This document shows positions 10,686-17,012 of a stretch of DNA of 24,024 bases, piece by piece. Below the pieces are notes generated by a model. That model was not told the DNA's origin, ran no database searches, and saw only the letters and a list, made by a program, of their open reading frames with translations. The stretch lies in the IMG/VR virus record IMGVR_UViG_3300027969_000418, positions 1-24,024 of that record; one strand, written 5' to 3'. A program made the position numbers and the translations under genes. Each line of letters starts with the position of its first letter. The first letter of the stretch is position 1. The DNA is from a virus.

Positions 10686-12902
10686 ATGACTTATTATTTA
10701 CAATTAAATTATCCAGCATCAGCTGTGGCTGGCATTCCAATTGAATGGGATATAGTCAATGGTGAACCAGATGAAACTTATTATATAACTACTAATATAC
10801 CAGATCATACTAGAATTCCTCCAACTGGTACATATTCGTTAGATGTAAATGGTGAGGCGTCATCAAATACAACATCATTTGGTAATTTTCTTGGTACAGC
10901 AAATATAGATTTTCATTTTCAATATAATGGATTATTCAGTAGAGTTGTAAATTTTACTGCTATAAAATTATGGGTTCCTGATGAAATATTAAAATCAATT
11001 GAACTAAATTGGAATTTTGATTATTTGCAAACAGAATTTGATAAACTAAAATTTTCAAATTACAATGGTAGTAATGGCAATAGTTTAAATGCTGGTGGTT
11101 CGTTATCAAATGATTTTTATATGAGAAATTGGAGTAGCTTTCAAGTTGGTGCTGAAACTAATTTAACATATAAAATAAATTTGACAGATTCGCCATATGG
11201 AAATACTGCGGTTGAAACTTCAGATTATGTATGGGCAAGAGGTCCTATTTTTCAATTAGAAAGAACTTACAGATGGAACGCAGAATTTTGGGCTAGAAAA
11301 ACAGTAACTGGTCCTGCAAATTCTGGTTCAATTTTTATGGTAATTTCTAATTATAATAGTAATGCAGTATTAATTAGTGCTGAAAATGATACTCATACAG
11401 ATGGGTTTGATTGGAATTATCCATTAGCTAATCTTTATCAAAATACTATGCCACTTGGTGTATGGACAAAATACAGATATACTATTGGTCCAGAAACAAT
11501 TAAAAATCATAGTGCAAATGCAAGATTTATTAGTCTTGGATTTATATGTAACTATCCATCCACTGGTGTAGTTGGCAATGATACTATACAATTTGCTGGG
11601 TTTTCATTAAGACCTTTTCTTGTACAAGATGAACCTATTCGTGGTCCAGAAGGATTTAAAGGTTCTCGTGGAATAACAGGGTTTACTGGTTCTATTGGTG
11701 ATCCAGGACCAGCTGGAACAGAACCTGGTCCAATAGGATTAACTGGATTTCAAGGTTCTACAGGCGCTAGAGGATTGCCGGGATATCGTGGGTGTGAAGG
11801 AGAAAAAGGACCACCAGGAGATGTGCCTGGACCACAAGGTGGGCAAGGACCAACTGGTTACAGAGGTTGTCAAGGTGAACAAGGAATAGTAGGGTTTCAA
11901 GGATGTAGAGGCGACCAAGGAAGTAGAGGCGATAAAGGTTATACGGGTTCAGCTGGAACAGAACCTGGTCCAGTAGGATATAGAGGTTCAGCTGGTAGAG
12001 ATGGCACAAATGGTACAGATGGAAAAAACGGAACCAACGGAACCAACGGAACAAATGGGACCAATGGAACCAATGGAACCAACGGAACAAATGGACAAAC
12101 TGGTGCTACAGGATCACGAGGTGAAACAGGATTTAGAGGTTCTGGAGGTGATAAAGGTCAACAAGGTGATCCCGGTGGTCCACAAGGAATACCAGGAATA
12201 AATGGTCAAAATGGTCAAAATGGATTTACTGGTTCTGTTGGTTTAACTGGTTCTGCAGGAAAAGAATATCGAGGATCAACTGGATATCGTGGTTCAGAAG
12301 GATTTAAAGGTTCTGAAGGTTATAAAGGATCAGAAGGATATCGTGGATCAGAAGGATATTTTGGATCAACGGGGTATCAAGGTTCAGGAGGATTTAGAGG
12401 ATCAGTTGGTGCAAGAGGCGTTAATGGTTTTACTGGATGTGCGGGCATTGAAGGACCAATAGGACCCACTGGATTTAGAGGTTCACTTGGAACTGATGCT
12501 GTAACTTTTCTATCTTATGCTAATGGAGAAGGATACGGTAATGAAGTGTGGGTATTTGAAGGAAAATTCTTTGACCAAGGTAATGGTTATAATCAAGTAA
12601 CTGGTTTATATACAGCACCAACAAGTGGGTATTATCATGTTCATATGAATGGTCTTACTAGACCTGATGCTATAAATGCAATTACATTGTGGTTTCAGGT
12701 AAATGGTTCTGCAATATTACAATCTCAATTTTTAGATTATAAATTAAATGATACTGTACCATCTCCAATAAGAATGTCAACGATTGTTCATTTGGAGCAA
12801 GGTGATACTATTAGTGTATTCGTAAATGATGCTGGTGGAACTAGCACGTTAAACAATTTGCCAAGATATACGAATTTTGGCGCATTTTTAATAGGAAAAT
12901 AA
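10686..12902 (+). CDS. Large collagen-like fibre protein with C1q-like C-terminal head (738 aa)
   Basis: There are three regions. Residues 1 to about 318 form a non-repetitive, aromatic-rich beta region, possibly a carbohydrate-binding or attachment domain ('NWNFDYLQTEFDKLKFSNYNG' onward); I do not recognise its family. Residues about 320-602 are true Gly-x-y collagen-like sequence with prolines (GDPGPAG, GPPGDVPGPQG), four Cys residues placed in triplets (GCE, GCQ, GCR, GCA), an uninterrupted NGT run and a short block of GYxGSE hexapeptides. Residues about 605-738 resemble a C1q/TNF-like trimeric head ('NQVTGLYTAPTSGYYHVHMNG', later 'VHLEQGDTISVFV'). The architecture stalk + C1q head suits a trimeric adhesin. 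AGGA precedes the ATG at a somewhat long spacing; no late promoter element is seen, so it is probably co-transcribed with upstream genes. Confidence 0.75.
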   Translation: MTYYLQLNYPASAVAGIPIEWDIVNGEPDETYYITTNIPDHTRIPPTGTYSLDVNGEASSNTTSFGNFLGTANIDFHFQYNGLFSRVVNFTAIKLWVPDEILKSIELNWNFDYLQTEFDKLKFSNYNGSNGNSLNAGGSLSNDFYMRNWSSFQVGAETNLTYKINLTDSPYGNTAVETSDYVWARGPIFQLERTYRWNAEFWARKTVTGPANSGSIFMVISNYNSNAVLISAENDTHTDGFDWNYPLANLYQNTMPLGVWTKYRYTIGPETIKNHSANARFISLGFICNYPSTGVVGNDTIQFAGFSLRPFLVQDEPIRGPEGFKGSRGITGFTGSIGDPGPAGTEPGPIGLTGFQGSTGARGLPGYRGCEGEKGPPGDVPGPQGGQGPTGYRGCQGEQGIVGFQGCRGDQGSRGDKGYTGSAGTEPGPVGYRGSAGRDGTNGTDGKNGTNGTNGTNGTNGTNGTNGTNGQTGATGSRGETGFRGSGGDKGQQGDPGGPQGIPGINGQNGQNGFTGSVGLTGSAGKEYRGSTGYRGSEGFKGSEGYKGSEGYRGSEGYFGSTGYQGSGGFRGSVGARGVNGFTGCAGIEGPIGPTGFRGSLGTDAVTFLSYANGEGYGNEVWVFEGKFFDQGNGYNQVTGLYTAPTSGYYHVHMNGLTRPDAINAITLWFQVNGSAILQSQFLDYKLNDTVPSPIRMSTIVHLEQGDTISVFVNDAGGTSTLNNLPRYTNFGAFLIGK
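11643..12492 (+). repeat. Collagen-like Gly-x-y coding region of the C1q-headed fibre
   Basis: About 280 residues of Gly-x-y triplets, with two short non-triplet breaks at 'TEPGP' and one at 'VPGP'. It contains proline-bearing triplets, the NGT run and, near 12280-12370, a block of GY-x-GSE hexapeptides closely similar to those in the 4406 gene, suggesting exchange between fibre genes. Confidence 0.7.
12004..12099 (+). repeat. 9-bp tandem repeat encoding NGT triplets
   Basis: Short tandem units such as AACGGAACC and AATGGAACA encode a run of Asn-Gly-Thr triplets within the collagen-like region of the 738-residue protein. Short near-identical units are prone to slippage by multiples of 9 bp, which would change stalk length without breaking the frame. 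Confidence 0.8.
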
Positions 12903-12905
12903 AAA

Positions 12906-13187
12906 ATGGAATATAAAATAATTTATACTGAAGCAGAAGATATGGCTATGAAAAGTATATCTTATTCTGTTGATGAGTGGGTACAAAATGTATGTCATGA
13001 GAGAGCAAGTAAAGCTATTGATGCTATTGTGGATAGATCATTATCTAAATTTTTTCAGGCTGGAATTCAAATTCCTTCATCAAAAGCAGAAATAGTATTA
13101 GCTGCTTTTGCAAACGGGTGGGAGAAAACTGCAGCTGAGACACATGATGAATTTATAGCTAGTTTATCAGCAAACACACAATCATAA
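12906..13187 (+). CDS. Small protein of unknown function (93 aa)
   Basis: I do not recognise this protein. It is 93 residues, acidic at the N-terminus ('YTEAEDMAMKSISYSVDEW'), then mostly predicted helix, with no signal peptide or membrane segment and a single Cys. It begins 3 bases after the large collagen-like gene, and its stop codon lies inside the late-promoter-like element that precedes gp13. Its location at the end of the fibre cluster suggests a small virion or assembly protein, but nothing in the sequence proves that. Its coding status is supported by tight packing and a clean fit between two confident genes. Confidence 0.6.
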   Translation: MEYKIIYTEAEDMAMKSISYSVDEWVQNVCHERASKAIDAIVDRSLSKFFQAGIQIPSSKAEIVLAAFANGWEKTAAETHDEFIASLSANTQS

Positions 13188-13190
13188 ATA
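13183..13190 (+). promoter_or_regulatory. Late-promoter-like element CATAAATA before gp13
   Basis: CATAAATA contains the stop codon (13185-13187) of the small upstream gene and ends 18 bases before the gp13 ATG, with an AAAGGG ribosome-binding site in between. It would start a transcript carrying gp13 and the two cargo genes. Confidence 0.55.
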
Positions 13191-13208: not shown

Positions 13209-13949
13209 ATGGCTACAATTACAACTAGAGACGGTTTCAAAGAGTATTGTCTTCGCAAACTTGGTAAACCAGTTATTGAAATTAATGTTGATGACGATCA
13301 GGTTGAGGATCGTATTGATGAAGCATTGAAGTATTATTGGGATTACCATTTTGATGGTACTGAGAAGATATACTATAAGCATCAGTTTACTGAAGAAGAT
13401 AAAGTAAACAAATATATTACTTTGCCTCAGAATATCATAGGCGCAGTAAATATATTTGATATCGGTGATTACATAGCTTCAAATAATATCTTCAACATCA
13501 GATATCAGATTGCTCTGAATGATCTTTATACCTTGACATATCAATCAATGGTTCCTTACTATATGGCATTCCAACAACTACAGCTTCTTGAACAGCTTCT
13601 TGTTGGTAAGCAGCCAATTAGATACAATAGAAATACCAATAAACTATTCATAGATGTTAGCTGGGACAAAATTATTGTTGGTCAATTTCTTGTGGTAGAA
13701 GCTTATTCTGTTGTTGATCCTGTAGGATTTACAGATGTATGGAATGACAGATGGCTACAGAGATATGCTTCTGAATTGATTAAGAAGCAATGGGGAACCA
13801 ATCTTACTAAGTTTGTTGGTATGCAATTACCTGGTGGTGTTACCTTTAATGGTGAAAAAATTTATGGTGATGCTCATGATGCAATTGATAAGTTGGAAGC
13901 AGAAATGATTAATAGTTACAGCTTGCCTGTTGCAGATATGATAGGATAA
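13209..13949 (+). CDS. gp13: Neck protein gp13
   Basis: This 246-residue protein matches the short gp13 of marine T4-like phages: an N-terminal 'FKEYCLRKLGKPVIEINVDD' segment, then 'QVEDRIDEALKYYWDYHFDG', and later 'DVWNDRWLQRYASELIKKQWG', all typical of the neck family. In T4, gp13 and gp14 form the neck that closes the filled head and receives the tail; T4 gp13 is longer (309 aa). The assignment is supported by position: gp14-gp20 follow in T4 order after two inserted genes. Start chosen by the AAAGGG ribosome-binding site 7-8 bases upstream. I cannot exclude that the 13/14 labels should be swapped, but the next structural protein is a better gp14. Confidence 0.8.
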   Translation: MATITTRDGFKEYCLRKLGKPVIEINVDDDQVEDRIDEALKYYWDYHFDGTEKIYYKHQFTEEDKVNKYITLPQNIIGAVNIFDIGDYIASNNIFNIRYQIALNDLYTLTYQSMVPYYMAFQQLQLLEQLLVGKQPIRYNRNTNKLFIDVSWDKIIVGQFLVVEAYSVVDPVGFTDVWNDRWLQRYASELIKKQWGTNLTKFVGMQLPGGVTFNGEKIYGDAHDAIDKLEAEMINSYSLPVADMIG

Positions 13950-13955
13950 AATTTT

Positions 13956-14513
13956 ATGTTACCATTTAATCTATTCATACAACTAGACGAAGATCAACAA
14001 CAAGCATTAAAATATGCTGCTAGAGCCCATGCTGGTCAAACAAGATCAGATGGTTCTGATTATATTCGTCATCCTGAAAGAGTTGCTGCGATTGTTAAAC
14101 AATTTAAACAATCACACAATCTTGATGCTCTTGTGAGTGCTGCATATACTCATGATACCATCGAAGATACCAATACAACTAAAGAAGATTTAGAAAAAAT
14201 GTTCGGTGCTCTTGTTGCTTCTCTTGTACAGGAATTAACTTCTGATAAAGAAGAAATTGCAAGAGTTGGCAAAACAGAATATTTGTCTCAGAAGATGAAG
14301 AAAATGACTAGTTATGCTTTGGTTATCAAGTTGGCAGATAGATTGGATAATGTACAAGATATCAAGTCAGCAAAGAATGCTGCATGGCGTGAGAAGTATA
14401 AGAAAGAAACTCTTAGCATAATGAGCTATATAGAGAAGGAAAGAGTTTTATCAAAGACTCATATGAAAATTATTACAGCTATACGCCATAAACTAGCAGA
14501 ATTGAGTCACTAA
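13956..14513 (+). CDS. SpoT/MESH1-like HD-domain protein, predicted (p)ppGpp hydrolase (small alarmone hydrolase)
   Basis: At 185 residues this is the size of stand-alone small alarmone hydrolases (MESH1 type), with no synthetase, TGS or ACT domain. Family motifs are in order: 'AARAHAGQTRSDGSDYIRHP' (residues 21-40, metal ligand H39), 'AAYTHDTIEDT' (62-72, metal ligands H66 and D67, catalytic-type E70 and D71), 'FGALVASLVQELTSDK' (83-98), and 'VIKLADRLDNVQDI' (123-136, metal ligand D128). All expected HD residues are intact, so an active Mn-dependent phosphohydrolase removing the 3'-pyrophosphate of (p)ppGpp is likely. It lies 6 bases after gp13 and 1 base before the repeat-protein gene, inside a structural operon where T4 has no gene, and would be expressed late with gp13. 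Substrate is inferred from motifs; a related nucleotide is possible. Confidence 0.8.
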   Translation: MLPFNLFIQLDEDQQQALKYAARAHAGQTRSDGSDYIRHPERVAAIVKQFKQSHNLDALVSAAYTHDTIEDTNTTKEDLEKMFGALVASLVQELTSDKEEIARVGKTEYLSQKMKKMTSYALVIKLADRLDNVQDIKSAKNAAWREKYKKETLSIMSYIEKERVLSKTHMKIITAIRHKLAELSH

Positions 14514-14514
14514 A

Positions 14515-16254
14515 ATGTTAATGTTCAAACAATTTATCAAAGAATATATGACCATCACAGGGTACAATGAAATTCTCAACGAAGAATTAAATGATGATCA
14601 AAAAGCAGTTGTCGATTCATGGGGTGCAAACACAAAGGCTAAGAAAATATCAGCTAATGTTATACCAAAAGGTGAAGATAGAACATATATTCCTCTAGAA
14701 CATCCAGATGATAATAAACCAGTAGAACCACATCCAGATGTGAAAGCACATCTTGAAAAGCATGGCTACAAGATAACTGATTATAGAAATAATAAAGCAG
14801 TCGAACCTAAGTATGGAAGAGAGATTCGTATTGGTAAAGCATTGAATGCTACTGGTGCTTCTAAAGATTTGATGGATACATTCAACAATGATCCTAAAAG
14901 GGCTGCTTCCAACTCTGGTAAGTTGGGCGTAGTTATTTCTCGTCACCCTCATGATGTTGCTGGAATGTCTACTGATAAAGGTTGGCGTTCATGCATGAAG
15001 ATGGGTAAAACAGGAAATAAAAAAGATGATGATGCTGGTCTATATAGTCATTATTTAAAACATGATGTTAAACAAGGAACTCATGTTGCTTATCTTGTAC
15101 ATGAACATGATAAAGAAGCAAAATCTCCTCTTGCAAGAATAGCATTGAAACCGTTCGAATCAGAAGATAAAAAAGATACTATCCTTAGACCAGAAGATAG
15201 AACATATGGAACATCTGATCATGCATTTGGTCATACAGTAAAAAAATGGGCAGAAACAAATTTTCCTGCTAAAGAAGGTAATATATATAGAAAAAATACA
15301 AAATTATATGATGATGATAACAAAGGTACAGTTGCTAGTACTAATACATTATTAAAAAGTAAAAGTTATATGGATAGAGCAGACGCTTTTAGTAATAGTG
15401 ATGTTACACATGAACATATTACTCAGGGATTAAACGACCCTATTGAAGAAGTTAGAAGAGCCGCAGTATCTCATCCAAATGCAACTAAAGAACATCTTTC
15501 TAAAGTATTAGATAACCCAAATGAAGAACGCCATGTAAGAATAGGTGCATTATTACATCCAAAATTGCCTTCAGAAGAAATTACTAAAGTTTTAAATAGT
15601 CCTGGAGGGTATAGAAATAATACAGAAAAAGAATATGCACTCAAGAATCCAAATGTAACACAAGAACATATTACTAAAGCTTTGAATGATCCAGATAGAG
15701 ATATAAGAAAATCTGCTATTCAAAATTCTAAAGTTACATTAAAACCAGAACATATTTCTAAAGTATTAGATAACCCAGATGAAGATACACAAACAAAAGC
15801 TATAGCTGTAAGAAGACCAGAAGCTACCGCAGAACATATTACTAAAGGATTAGATCATAACAATTCTTACGTAAGACATTTTGCCATCAAAAATCCTAAT
15901 GCAAACGAAGATCATATTACTAAAGCTTTATATGATCCTAATGCAGATGTTAGACGATCTGCTATTTTTCATCCTAAAGCAACACCAGAACATATTACAA
16001 AAGCTTTGAATGATAATGATGAAGATGTTGTTCAAGCTGCTATTAAACATCCAAATGCAACACCAGAACATATTACAAAAGCTTTGAATCATCCAAGCGG
16101 ATTTATAAGAAAAGATGCTATTGAAAATCCTAATTCAACAGAAGAACATGCCAATAAAGCATTAAAAGATTCAAGTGGTATGGTCGTAAGAGCGGCAGAA
16201 ACTCGTCTTGCACAACTTAGAGTAGCAGATAAAAGAAAAAGTAAAGAGCTATAA
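14515..16254 (+). CDS. Helical-repeat (LRV/HEAT-like) protein with unrecognised N-terminal domain (579 aa)
   Basis: Residues 1 to about 290 form an unrecognised charged domain with a conspicuous 'ISRHPHDVAGMSTDKGWRSCM' region (W157, S159-C160-M161); I recall similar 'W-x-SCM' stretches in other phage hypothetical proteins but no known function. From about residue 293 to the end are roughly ten repeats of 24-27 residues with consensus PNAT-x-EHITKALNDP-x-x-DVR-x-x-AI-x-H, resembling leucine-rich-repeat-variant or HEAT-like helical repeats that build a curved binding surface. It begins 1 base after the HD hydrolase; a second in-frame ATG (14521) is a possible start, giving the more natural 'MFKQF'. 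Its stop lies inside the gp14 late promoter. Not part of the T4 core set; probably cargo acting with its neighbour. No catalytic call is made. Confidence 0.65.
   Translation: MLMFKQFIKEYMTITGYNEILNEELNDDQKAVVDSWGANTKAKKISANVIPKGEDRTYIPLEHPDDNKPVEPHPDVKAHLEKHGYKITDYRNNKAVEPKYGREIRIGKALNATGASKDLMDTFNNDPKRAASNSGKLGVVISRHPHDVAGMSTDKGWRSCMKMGKTGNKKDDDAGLYSHYLKHDVKQGTHVAYLVHEHDKEAKSPLARIALKPFESEDKKDTILRPEDRTYGTSDHAFGHTVKKWAETNFPAKEGNIYRKNTKLYDDDNKGTVASTNTLLKSKSYMDRADAFSNSDVTHEHITQGLNDPIEEVRRAAVSHPNATKEHLSKVLDNPNEERHVRIGALLHPKLPSEEITKVLNSPGGYRNNTEKEYALKNPNVTQEHITKALNDPDRDIRKSAIQNSKVTLKPEHISKVLDNPDEDTQTKAIAVRRPEATAEHITKGLDHNNSYVRHFAIKNPNANEDHITKALYDPNADVRRSAIFHPKATPEHITKALNDNDEDVVQAAIKHPNATPEHITKALNHPSGFIRKDAIENPNSTEEHANKALKDSSGMVVRAAETRLAQLRVADKRKSKEL
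15391..16230 (+). repeat. Degenerate ~75-bp coding repeats (helical-repeat domain)
   Basis: About ten coding repeats of 72-81 bp, best conserved around bases encoding EHITKALN. Two adjacent units near 15980-16085 are nearly identical, consistent with recent duplication. Confidence 0.75.
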
Positions 16255-16257
16255 ATA
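16250..16257 (+). promoter_or_regulatory. Late promoter TATAAATA before gp14
   Basis: A perfect match to the T4 late promoter core, ending 26 bases before the gp14 ATG and containing the stop codon (16252-16254) of the helical-repeat gene. It separates transcription of gp14 and the terminase genes from the cargo genes. Confidence 0.7.
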
Positions 16258-16283: not shown

Positions 16284-17012
16284 ATGGCAACTAATTTTTA
16301 CTTCAACAATTTTTCTTCTTCTGGTGAACAGAACCTGATAGAAAATCTTATCATTGAATCTATAAGGATTCATGGTGTAGATACCTATTATGTCCCAAGA
16401 ACAATTATTACCAGAGACAATACTTTCAGAGAACAATCAGTCACCGAATATGGTGAAGGAATTTCTATTGAAATGTATATCAAGAATGTTGATGGCTTTG
16501 AAGGTGATGGCGAATTCCTATCTAAGTTTGGTGTTGAAGTAAGAGATCAGATCACATTCTCTGTTGCTATGAGAGTATTTGATACTGAAGTTGGTTCTAA
16601 TCTTAGAAGAGATAGACCACTTGAAAATGATCTTGTTTGGTTTCCATTCAACCAACATCTTTATCAAATTAAATTTGTCAATAAGAAACCCATATTCTAT
16701 CAGATGGGCGCACTACAGATGTACGATGTTGTATGTGAATTGTTTGAATATTCTAATGAGGTATTCAATACTGGCATCAACATAATTGATGACACTTATA
16801 ATGCTCTTCTTACTACTACTGATCCTTATATTCTTACTGGTGAAAATGGTGTACGTATTACAGATGAAAATGGTTATGATATTCTTGATGAAGATTACAA
16901 CATTGGAACCTTGGATACTGCATCTCAGAATGATTATTTTGAATCAGAAGGAATTGATTTCTTAGATTTCTCTGAGAGAGACCCATTCAGTGAACTTGAG
17001 AGGAGAATTTAA
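16284..17012 (+). CDS. gp14: Neck protein gp14
   Basis: This 242-residue protein (T4 gp14 is 256) has the family's signature stretches: 'SIRIHGVDTYYVPRTI' near residue 30, 'VDGFEGDGEFLSKFGVEVRDQ' around residues 69-89, and 'RPLENDLVWFP' with 'QIKFVNKKPIFYQMG' further on. gp14 binds gp13 at the filled head to form the neck platform for the tail. The C-terminal ~70 residues are an acidic extension with 'NG-x-x-I' repeats ('ENGVRITDENGYDILDED'), of unknown role. The stop overlaps the gp15 ATG by one base, indicating coupled translation, and a perfect late promoter lies just upstream. Confidence 0.85.
   Translation: MATNFYFNNFSSSGEQNLIENLIIESIRIHGVDTYYVPRTIITRDNTFREQSVTEYGEGISIEMYIKNVDGFEGDGEFLSKFGVEVRDQITFSVAMRVFDTEVGSNLRRDRPLENDLVWFPFNQHLYQIKFVNKKPIFYQMGALQMYDVVCELFEYSNEVFNTGINIIDDTYNALLTTTDPYILTGENGVRITDENGYDILDEDYNIGTLDTASQNDYFESEGIDFLDFSERDPFSELERRI

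Follow-up and report, generated by a model that had tools for sequence, protein, structure and literature searches.

Why should two neck genes of a T4-like phage, gp13 and gp14, be separated by a gene for a small alarmone hydrolase (SAH) and a gene for a helical-repeat protein (here called REP), and what joins these two genes to each other? The question is raised by IMG/VR virus record IMGVR_UViG_3300027969_000418, whose 24,024 nucleotides are the whole stretch analysed here (the window), that is, the complete 24-kb virus record with no further sequence beyond. An earlier note had placed the two genes 1 base apart in the gp13-gp14 gap, and this layout is borne out by the open reading frames (ORFs), which encode 185 amino acids (aa) for SAH and 579 aa for REP and are separated by the single base 14514; the Pfam and PHROG matches of the flanking genes likewise agree with T4-type neck proteins (Table 1). 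The explanation that we favour, and regard as fairly probable from the sequence comparisons given below, is that SAH and REP are both head cargo, which would be targeted to the phage head by an N-terminal leader, trimmed by the prohead protease and injected with the DNA, and that the gp13-gp14 junction is a hotspot for such cargo.

The predicted leader is found at the N-termini of both proteins. REP begins with MLMFKQFIKE...ILNEE and SAH with MLPFNLFIQLDE, and by inspection both fit a strict leader pattern that was built from the T4 internal proteins and slightly widened. The N-termini of T4 ipI, ipII and ipIII (NC_000866; MKTFKEF.../MKTYQEFIAE) are leaders of the same kind, and when ~115 kb of T4 with 191 called ORFs was scanned as a control, the strict pattern matched these three and no others. 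This leader is reported to be all that the T4 internal proteins have in common and to carry foreign proteins into the head (PMC3012670), and the ip genes of T-even phages are described as recognised by it, as an accepted marker of injected proteins (PMC12373910). In SAH the LxE motif occupies residues 10-12, and E12 is kept in at least 90% of the alignment. The leader is modelled apart from the confident core in both proteins: pLDDT in SAH is ~53 at residues 1-10 and mostly >90 in the core, and the AlphaFold2 model of REP (mean pLDDT 90.5) starts with a helix and a low-confidence or disordered stretch before the compact domain. Peptidase_S77, the gp21-type prohead protease, was identified in 7/7 related records; its gene lies beyond the reach of the 24-kb window.

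The leader recurs among relatives of both genes. The SAH set comprised 58 of 80 loci (22 were removed by eye as near-duplicates), 5 of the 58 being open at the 5' end. The strict leader is carried by 16, and the relaxed one by 27, of the 38 stand-alone IMG/VR SAHs, compared with 0.083 and 0.36, respectively, expected after shuffling of the N-terminal residues. At 15 further loci SAH forms part of a long polyprotein, in which an xE motif stands just before the SAH domain (13/15), just after it (14/15) or on both sides (12/15), the background being 11% of 17-residue windows of these proteins with such a motif. For REP, 61 of 79 loci were included in the alignment (A2), and the closest group consists of 19 distinct relatives from L109-L138; the strict leader is present in 6 and the relaxed leader in 17 of these (2.15 expected in shuffles), and an xE motif marks the domain border in every one of the 19. 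In record G004 (157 kb, 181 ORFs called), SAH and REP are the only two strict matches, and in G001 and G004 together, a less biased set, the strict leader is found on 8/407 genes compared with 1.55 by shuffling. Leaders are also concentrated around SAH, being present on 22/68 same-strand neighbours of stand-alone SAHs versus 25/285 of the remaining genes at these loci (p 3e-6). A whole-record scan with a loose pattern (25/619 N-terminal versus 25/1231 internal Met, p 0.015) was uninformative, and a stricter pattern was therefore adopted, which over 141 loci matched at 35/1706 N-terminal versus 3/3858 internal Met; the associated p of 2.5e-15 is inflated because REP or SAH had served to select part of these loci.

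A link to virions comes from locus L113, where a leader-bearing gene of the REP cluster has a relative (E 1e-17) in cyanophage P-HM2 that is annotated as T4-GC190. The S-SM1 member of this cyanophage cluster was found in purified virions (PMC3037559), and NMNAT-like proteins have been reported from several cyanophage virions, with possible co-purification noted by the authors (PMC10665884). The virion cytidylyltransferase/NMNAT of cyanophages has a leader-bearing homologue at L113, whereas the P-HM2 copy is leaderless.

Besides the latter protein, several other observations weigh against the head-cargo explanation. Among loci selected by gp14, likewise a less biased set, 5/611 genes match the leader compared with 2.0 in shuffles, and as the leader is short, a lone match carries little weight. 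Because REP and T4 had been seen before the pattern was drawn up, the p-values are descriptive. In SAH itself the E expected right after FIx is absent and LDE follows instead. The strict leader is present in only 6/19 of the closest and 11/65 of all distinct REP relatives, and is absent from the jumbo-phage REP relatives and from some cultured-phage SAHs, such as that of Vibrio phage pv27. It is conceivable, but in our view unlikely, that SAH and REP are ordinary auxiliary genes acting unpackaged in the infected cell, with the leader as an N-terminal habit of the lineage or a local interaction tag. SAH-like genes are common in phages (230 phage records with a match), at least some of them lacking the leader, as in pv27, and phage SAHs have been interpreted as metabolic enzymes, for instance in phage Adele (PMC12846349). 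Such a role does not account for the presence of one leader, equal to that of the injected T4 proteins, on unrelated clustered proteins and, in many lineages, on SAH and REP, and the late promoters and late structural clusters fit packaging better than early action.

The first gene encodes a small alarmone hydrolase. SAH matches Pfam HD_4 (3.6e-19) and consists of a RelA/SpoT-type HD domain alone, with no synthetase domain; the NCBIfam spoT_relA match is confined to residues 17-159. Its best PDB sequence matches are human and fly MESH1 (3nr1, 4.6e-18), followed by Rel/SpoT enzymes, and its predicted fold is closest to the SAH of Pseudomonas aeruginosa (PaSAH) and MESH1 (Foldseek E 1.7e-7 to 6yvc, TM 0.78). 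Eight residues (R30, H39, H66, D67, E70, D71, D128 and N132), which we take to have the metal-binding and catalytic roles of their MESH1 counterparts, are conserved in 30/30 aligned sequences, and SAH is therefore probably an active enzyme. In fold, sequence and metal and active-site-type residues it resembles MESH1, PaSAH and PaSpo of phage SSU5, the last of which is said to neutralise toxSAS toxins (PMC9712102); what the SAHs of the window and its T4-like relatives add is a leader, a late structural location or a polyprotein context. The long proteins with an internal SAH (L091:3909-6308, L221:941-6700, L230, L236, L242 and others) reach 2141 aa, have nucleotidyltransferase-like starts in several cases and repeated VAEG/VAEA-type linkers, and resemble polyproteins cut by a prohead protease. 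The gene preceding the SAH polyprotein in L226 and at L091:2758-3912 is DUF6267-like by eye and has a leader-like start, MKFSDILFEAAAP.

As far as searched, the domain of REP, the second gene product, was seen in phages only: in 40 records of the phage collection, among which jumbo phages of Erwinia, Dickeya, Pseudomonas and Agrobacterium predominate, and at the 79 IMG/VR loci, while a pattern scan of the cellular genome collection yielded 13 candidates, none of which was confirmed. Among 62 members, 37 match PHROG 17056 and 24 match PHROG 18912, two families without assigned function; the window REP itself matches neither. The domain has no Pfam, NCBIfam or PDB sequence match, and the sole PADLOC match of REP is HEAT-ARM, within the repeats. 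Top fold matches of the domain are mostly GNAT acetyltransferases, yet with a best Foldseek E of 0.29 and a best Z of 5.7 this assignment was not adopted. PcfJ (PF14284), considered as a possible look-alike, gave a match in 0/5 records. The repeats suggest binding to a host macromolecule, and REP probably acts as another injected effector, by binding or modifying some target in the host. Some REP relatives are located directly behind a gp21-gp22-gp23 run (L122), after such a run (L178) or near gp21 and gp23 (L140). At L113:5886-9697, L116:7716-11814 and L121:6468-10502, REP begins runs of unrelated genes that nearly all bear the leader; these runs are downstream of gp41/UvsX-like genes and include DUF6267 (5e-91) and the T4-GC190 relative. 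A further cluster of four leader-bearing genes, on both strands and far from neck genes, is present at G001:159780-166540 (L198).

The earlier note took the close packing of SAH and REP as a sign of a functional pair, in which the repeat protein might present or regulate the hydrolase. The one-base spacing, the common leader and the retention of the pair in two lineages are in line with a true pair in which REP presents, targets or regulates SAH. These two lineages, the window and a single lineage of five contigs (L081-L085, counted as one because the REP DNA is identical in the four contigs compared), are the only ones in which the pair was seen, and between them REP is 63-75% and SAH 88% identical. 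In other relatives, SAH occurs at the junction without REP in L001, L005 and L215 (in the last between more distant gp13 and gp14) and accompanies other tagged genes in L231 and L259, and REP occurs without an adjacent SAH in L122, L113 and L116. An SAH-like match, of ~30% identity, was detected in 2/10 REP-bearing records, and the REP profile matched 0/10 SAH-bearing records in a search without positive control. An obligate pair is not supported by this distribution, and presentation or regulation of the hydrolase by REP was rejected as the principal explanation on co-occurrence; we consider it quite improbable. As the two genes are separable, it is preferable to view them as two neighbouring cargo genes of a single hotspot, and what links them is more likely a shared delivery route, through the packaging leader.

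The hotspot, which had also been suggested as possible in the earlier note, is supported by a set of 80 loci chosen by gp14 alone. The gp13-gp14 junction is empty (<=16 bases) in 61 of them, contains a 39-59 bp spacer in 4 and a gene in 9, and 6 loci have no visible gp13. The inserts are varied: SAH alone (L001, L005), a GIY-YIG-like endonuclease (L032), a leader-bearing ParB-like gene (L033, L034) and an SNase-like gene (L047, L055, L070, L071). In the far relatives L231 and L259, whose gp13 is ~37% identical, three leader-bearing genes lie between gp13 and gp14 with SAH in the middle. Contigs L081-L085, from outside the 80-locus set, have SAH and REP in a row, preceded by an endonuclease-like gene where the contig reaches. 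In L082 this GIY-YIG-like gene is directly before SAH-REP and has no Pfam match, and the copy that stands alone in L032 matches GIY-YIG at 0.00035, just under the cut-off. A 40 bp spacer at L012:93-132 keeps the last codons of the L032 gene, as a deletion scar of a homing endonuclease, and the spacer before SAH in L005 resembles the promoter spacer that precedes the GIY-YIG-like gene. With its empty and occupied states, endonuclease genes and scar, the junction is an intergenic homing-endonuclease hotspot; the window's own junction contains no endonuclease gene. The endonuclease-like genes of L082 and L032, the scar in L012 and the spacer in L005 would also suit SAH-REP as passive baggage of a homing endonuclease that targets gp13-gp14, with no benefit from packaging. 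This accounts for the arrival of the genes and not for their common leader or the active site conserved throughout the aligned SAHs, and it appears very improbable to us. A second junction with leader-bearing genes is gp16-gp17 (L001:7916-8299, L034:2743-3162), where SAH is found in L217/L218. In L001, a close relative, an HNH-like gene and an intein-like stretch seem by eye to interrupt gp17 (L001:9217-10900).

The insert had further been described as bounded by late promoter elements at 13183 and 16250. Both elements are present, and the former, CATAAATA, precedes gp13 and so does not bound the two-gene insert itself. An element of the CATAAATA type precedes gp13 also in L082 and L001, and at the REP-gp14 border of L082, from the other pair lineage, the TATAAATA element and its surroundings are nearly unchanged. 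On the + strand of the window, [TC]ATAAATA was observed 7 times versus 4.1 expected in first-order simulated sequence, which is barely above chance; 6/7 of these elements are situated 26-54 bases 5' of gene starts. Upstream of gp13, a 93-aa ORF (12906-13187) has no PHROG match, with diverged homologues in the corresponding position of L002, L005 and L082, and a 738-aa tail-fibre-like protein (10686-12902; PHROG tail fibre) contains collagen-like GxxGS/GYRGS repeats.

Table 1. Features of the gp13-gp14 region, in window coordinates
Feature	Position	Strand	Evidence and remarks
Late-promoter-like element CATAAATA	13183..13190	+	Precedes gp13 by 26 bases; gp13-SAH-REP would be transcribed from it
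gp13, neck protein (head-tail adaptor Ad2 family)	13209..13949	+	PHROG 211, 4.2e-40; left insertion border
SAH, small alarmone hydrolase (MESH1/SpoT-HD type), predicted head cargo	13956..14513	+	HD_4, MESH1/PaSAH likeness
Predicted SAH packaging leader MLPFNLFIQLDE	13956..13991	+	Outside conserved HD core (alignment); ends in an LxE motif
REP, leader + phage-specific domain + HEAT/LRV-like repeats, predicted head cargo	14515..16254	+	
Predicted REP packaging leader, residues 1-24	14515..14586	+	Helix 4-11, disordered 12-22, LxEE directly before domain
REP conserved domain, ~residues 27-275	14593..15339	+	Relatives match PHROG 17056/18912; weak GNAT-like fold match
REP HEAT/LRV-like helical repeats, ~residues 283-565	15361..16209	+	Pfam HEAT 1.1e-13, LRV 0.00012; sequence
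Late-promoter-like element TATAAATA	16250..16257	+	Overlaps REP stop codon; 34 bases before gp14
gp14, neck protein (head closure Hc2)	16284..17012	+	Pfam T4_neck-protein 8.7e-30, PHROG 460 7e-66; right border

If SAH and REP are head cargo, both would be made late and drawn by their leaders into the prohead core, where a T4-type prohead protease would cut after the (I/L)xE motif and remove the leader; the mature proteins would then be injected along with the phage DNA. Injected SAH, with (p)ppGpp as its presumed substrate, would remove this alarmone from the first moment of infection, for example in starved hosts, or may instead reverse the pyrophosphorylation carried out by toxSAS (alarmone-synthetase) defence toxins. 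Cargo genes and homing endonucleases would insert at, and be lost from, the gp13-gp14 junction.

Each of the ingredients, namely T4 internal proteins, phage SAHs and homing hotspots, is already known. SAH and REP resemble T4 IPI, IPII and IPIII and other injected internal proteins of T-even phages in the leader, a putative xE site, their accessory nature and the expected action right after injection. A T4-type gp21 protease is likewise present in the related records; packaging is here predicted from sequence. Unlike the genes of the T4 internal proteins, those of SAH and REP are located between gp13 and gp14, and whereas the known Ip1-3 are described as small inhibitors of GmrSD restriction (PMC12373910), the payloads of the window are a nucleotide hydrolase and a 579-aa repeat protein. 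The polyvalent proteins of phages and conjugative elements are reported to be injected multidomain effectors that include RelA/SpoT synthetase domains; the term HD domain is absent from the main text of that paper (PMC5512222), and the window encodes a stand-alone, leader-bearing hydrolase. The open-licence literature searched yielded no leader-tagged, probably virion-borne alarmone hydrolase.

A broader proposal, which we advance tentatively and with somewhat less than even confidence, is that T4-like phages from lakes and seas possess a general system of protein delivery, in which one leader is placed on interchangeable payloads and SAH cancels the stringent state or alarmone-type toxins before phage genes are expressed. 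The payloads of such a system may include the alarmone hydrolase, REP, and HAD-like, NMNAT-like and nuclease-like proteins, and they may be stored at late-operon junctions (gp13-gp14, gp16-gp17) or in polyproteins that are cut inside the head by the prohead protease. Starvation is the usual state of bacteria in lakes and seas, and if SAH is indeed head cargo, phages would switch off the bacterial starvation alarm on entry by means of a particle-borne enzyme. Cyanophage MazG, earlier implicated in such a role, is reported not to be capable of hydrolysing magic spot nucleotides (PMC6850273). The T4 packaging leader would then be known from enzymes as well as from small restriction inhibitors, it would offer a cheap sequence rule for predicting injected effectors, and new payloads and leaders would become available for protein delivery by phage heads.
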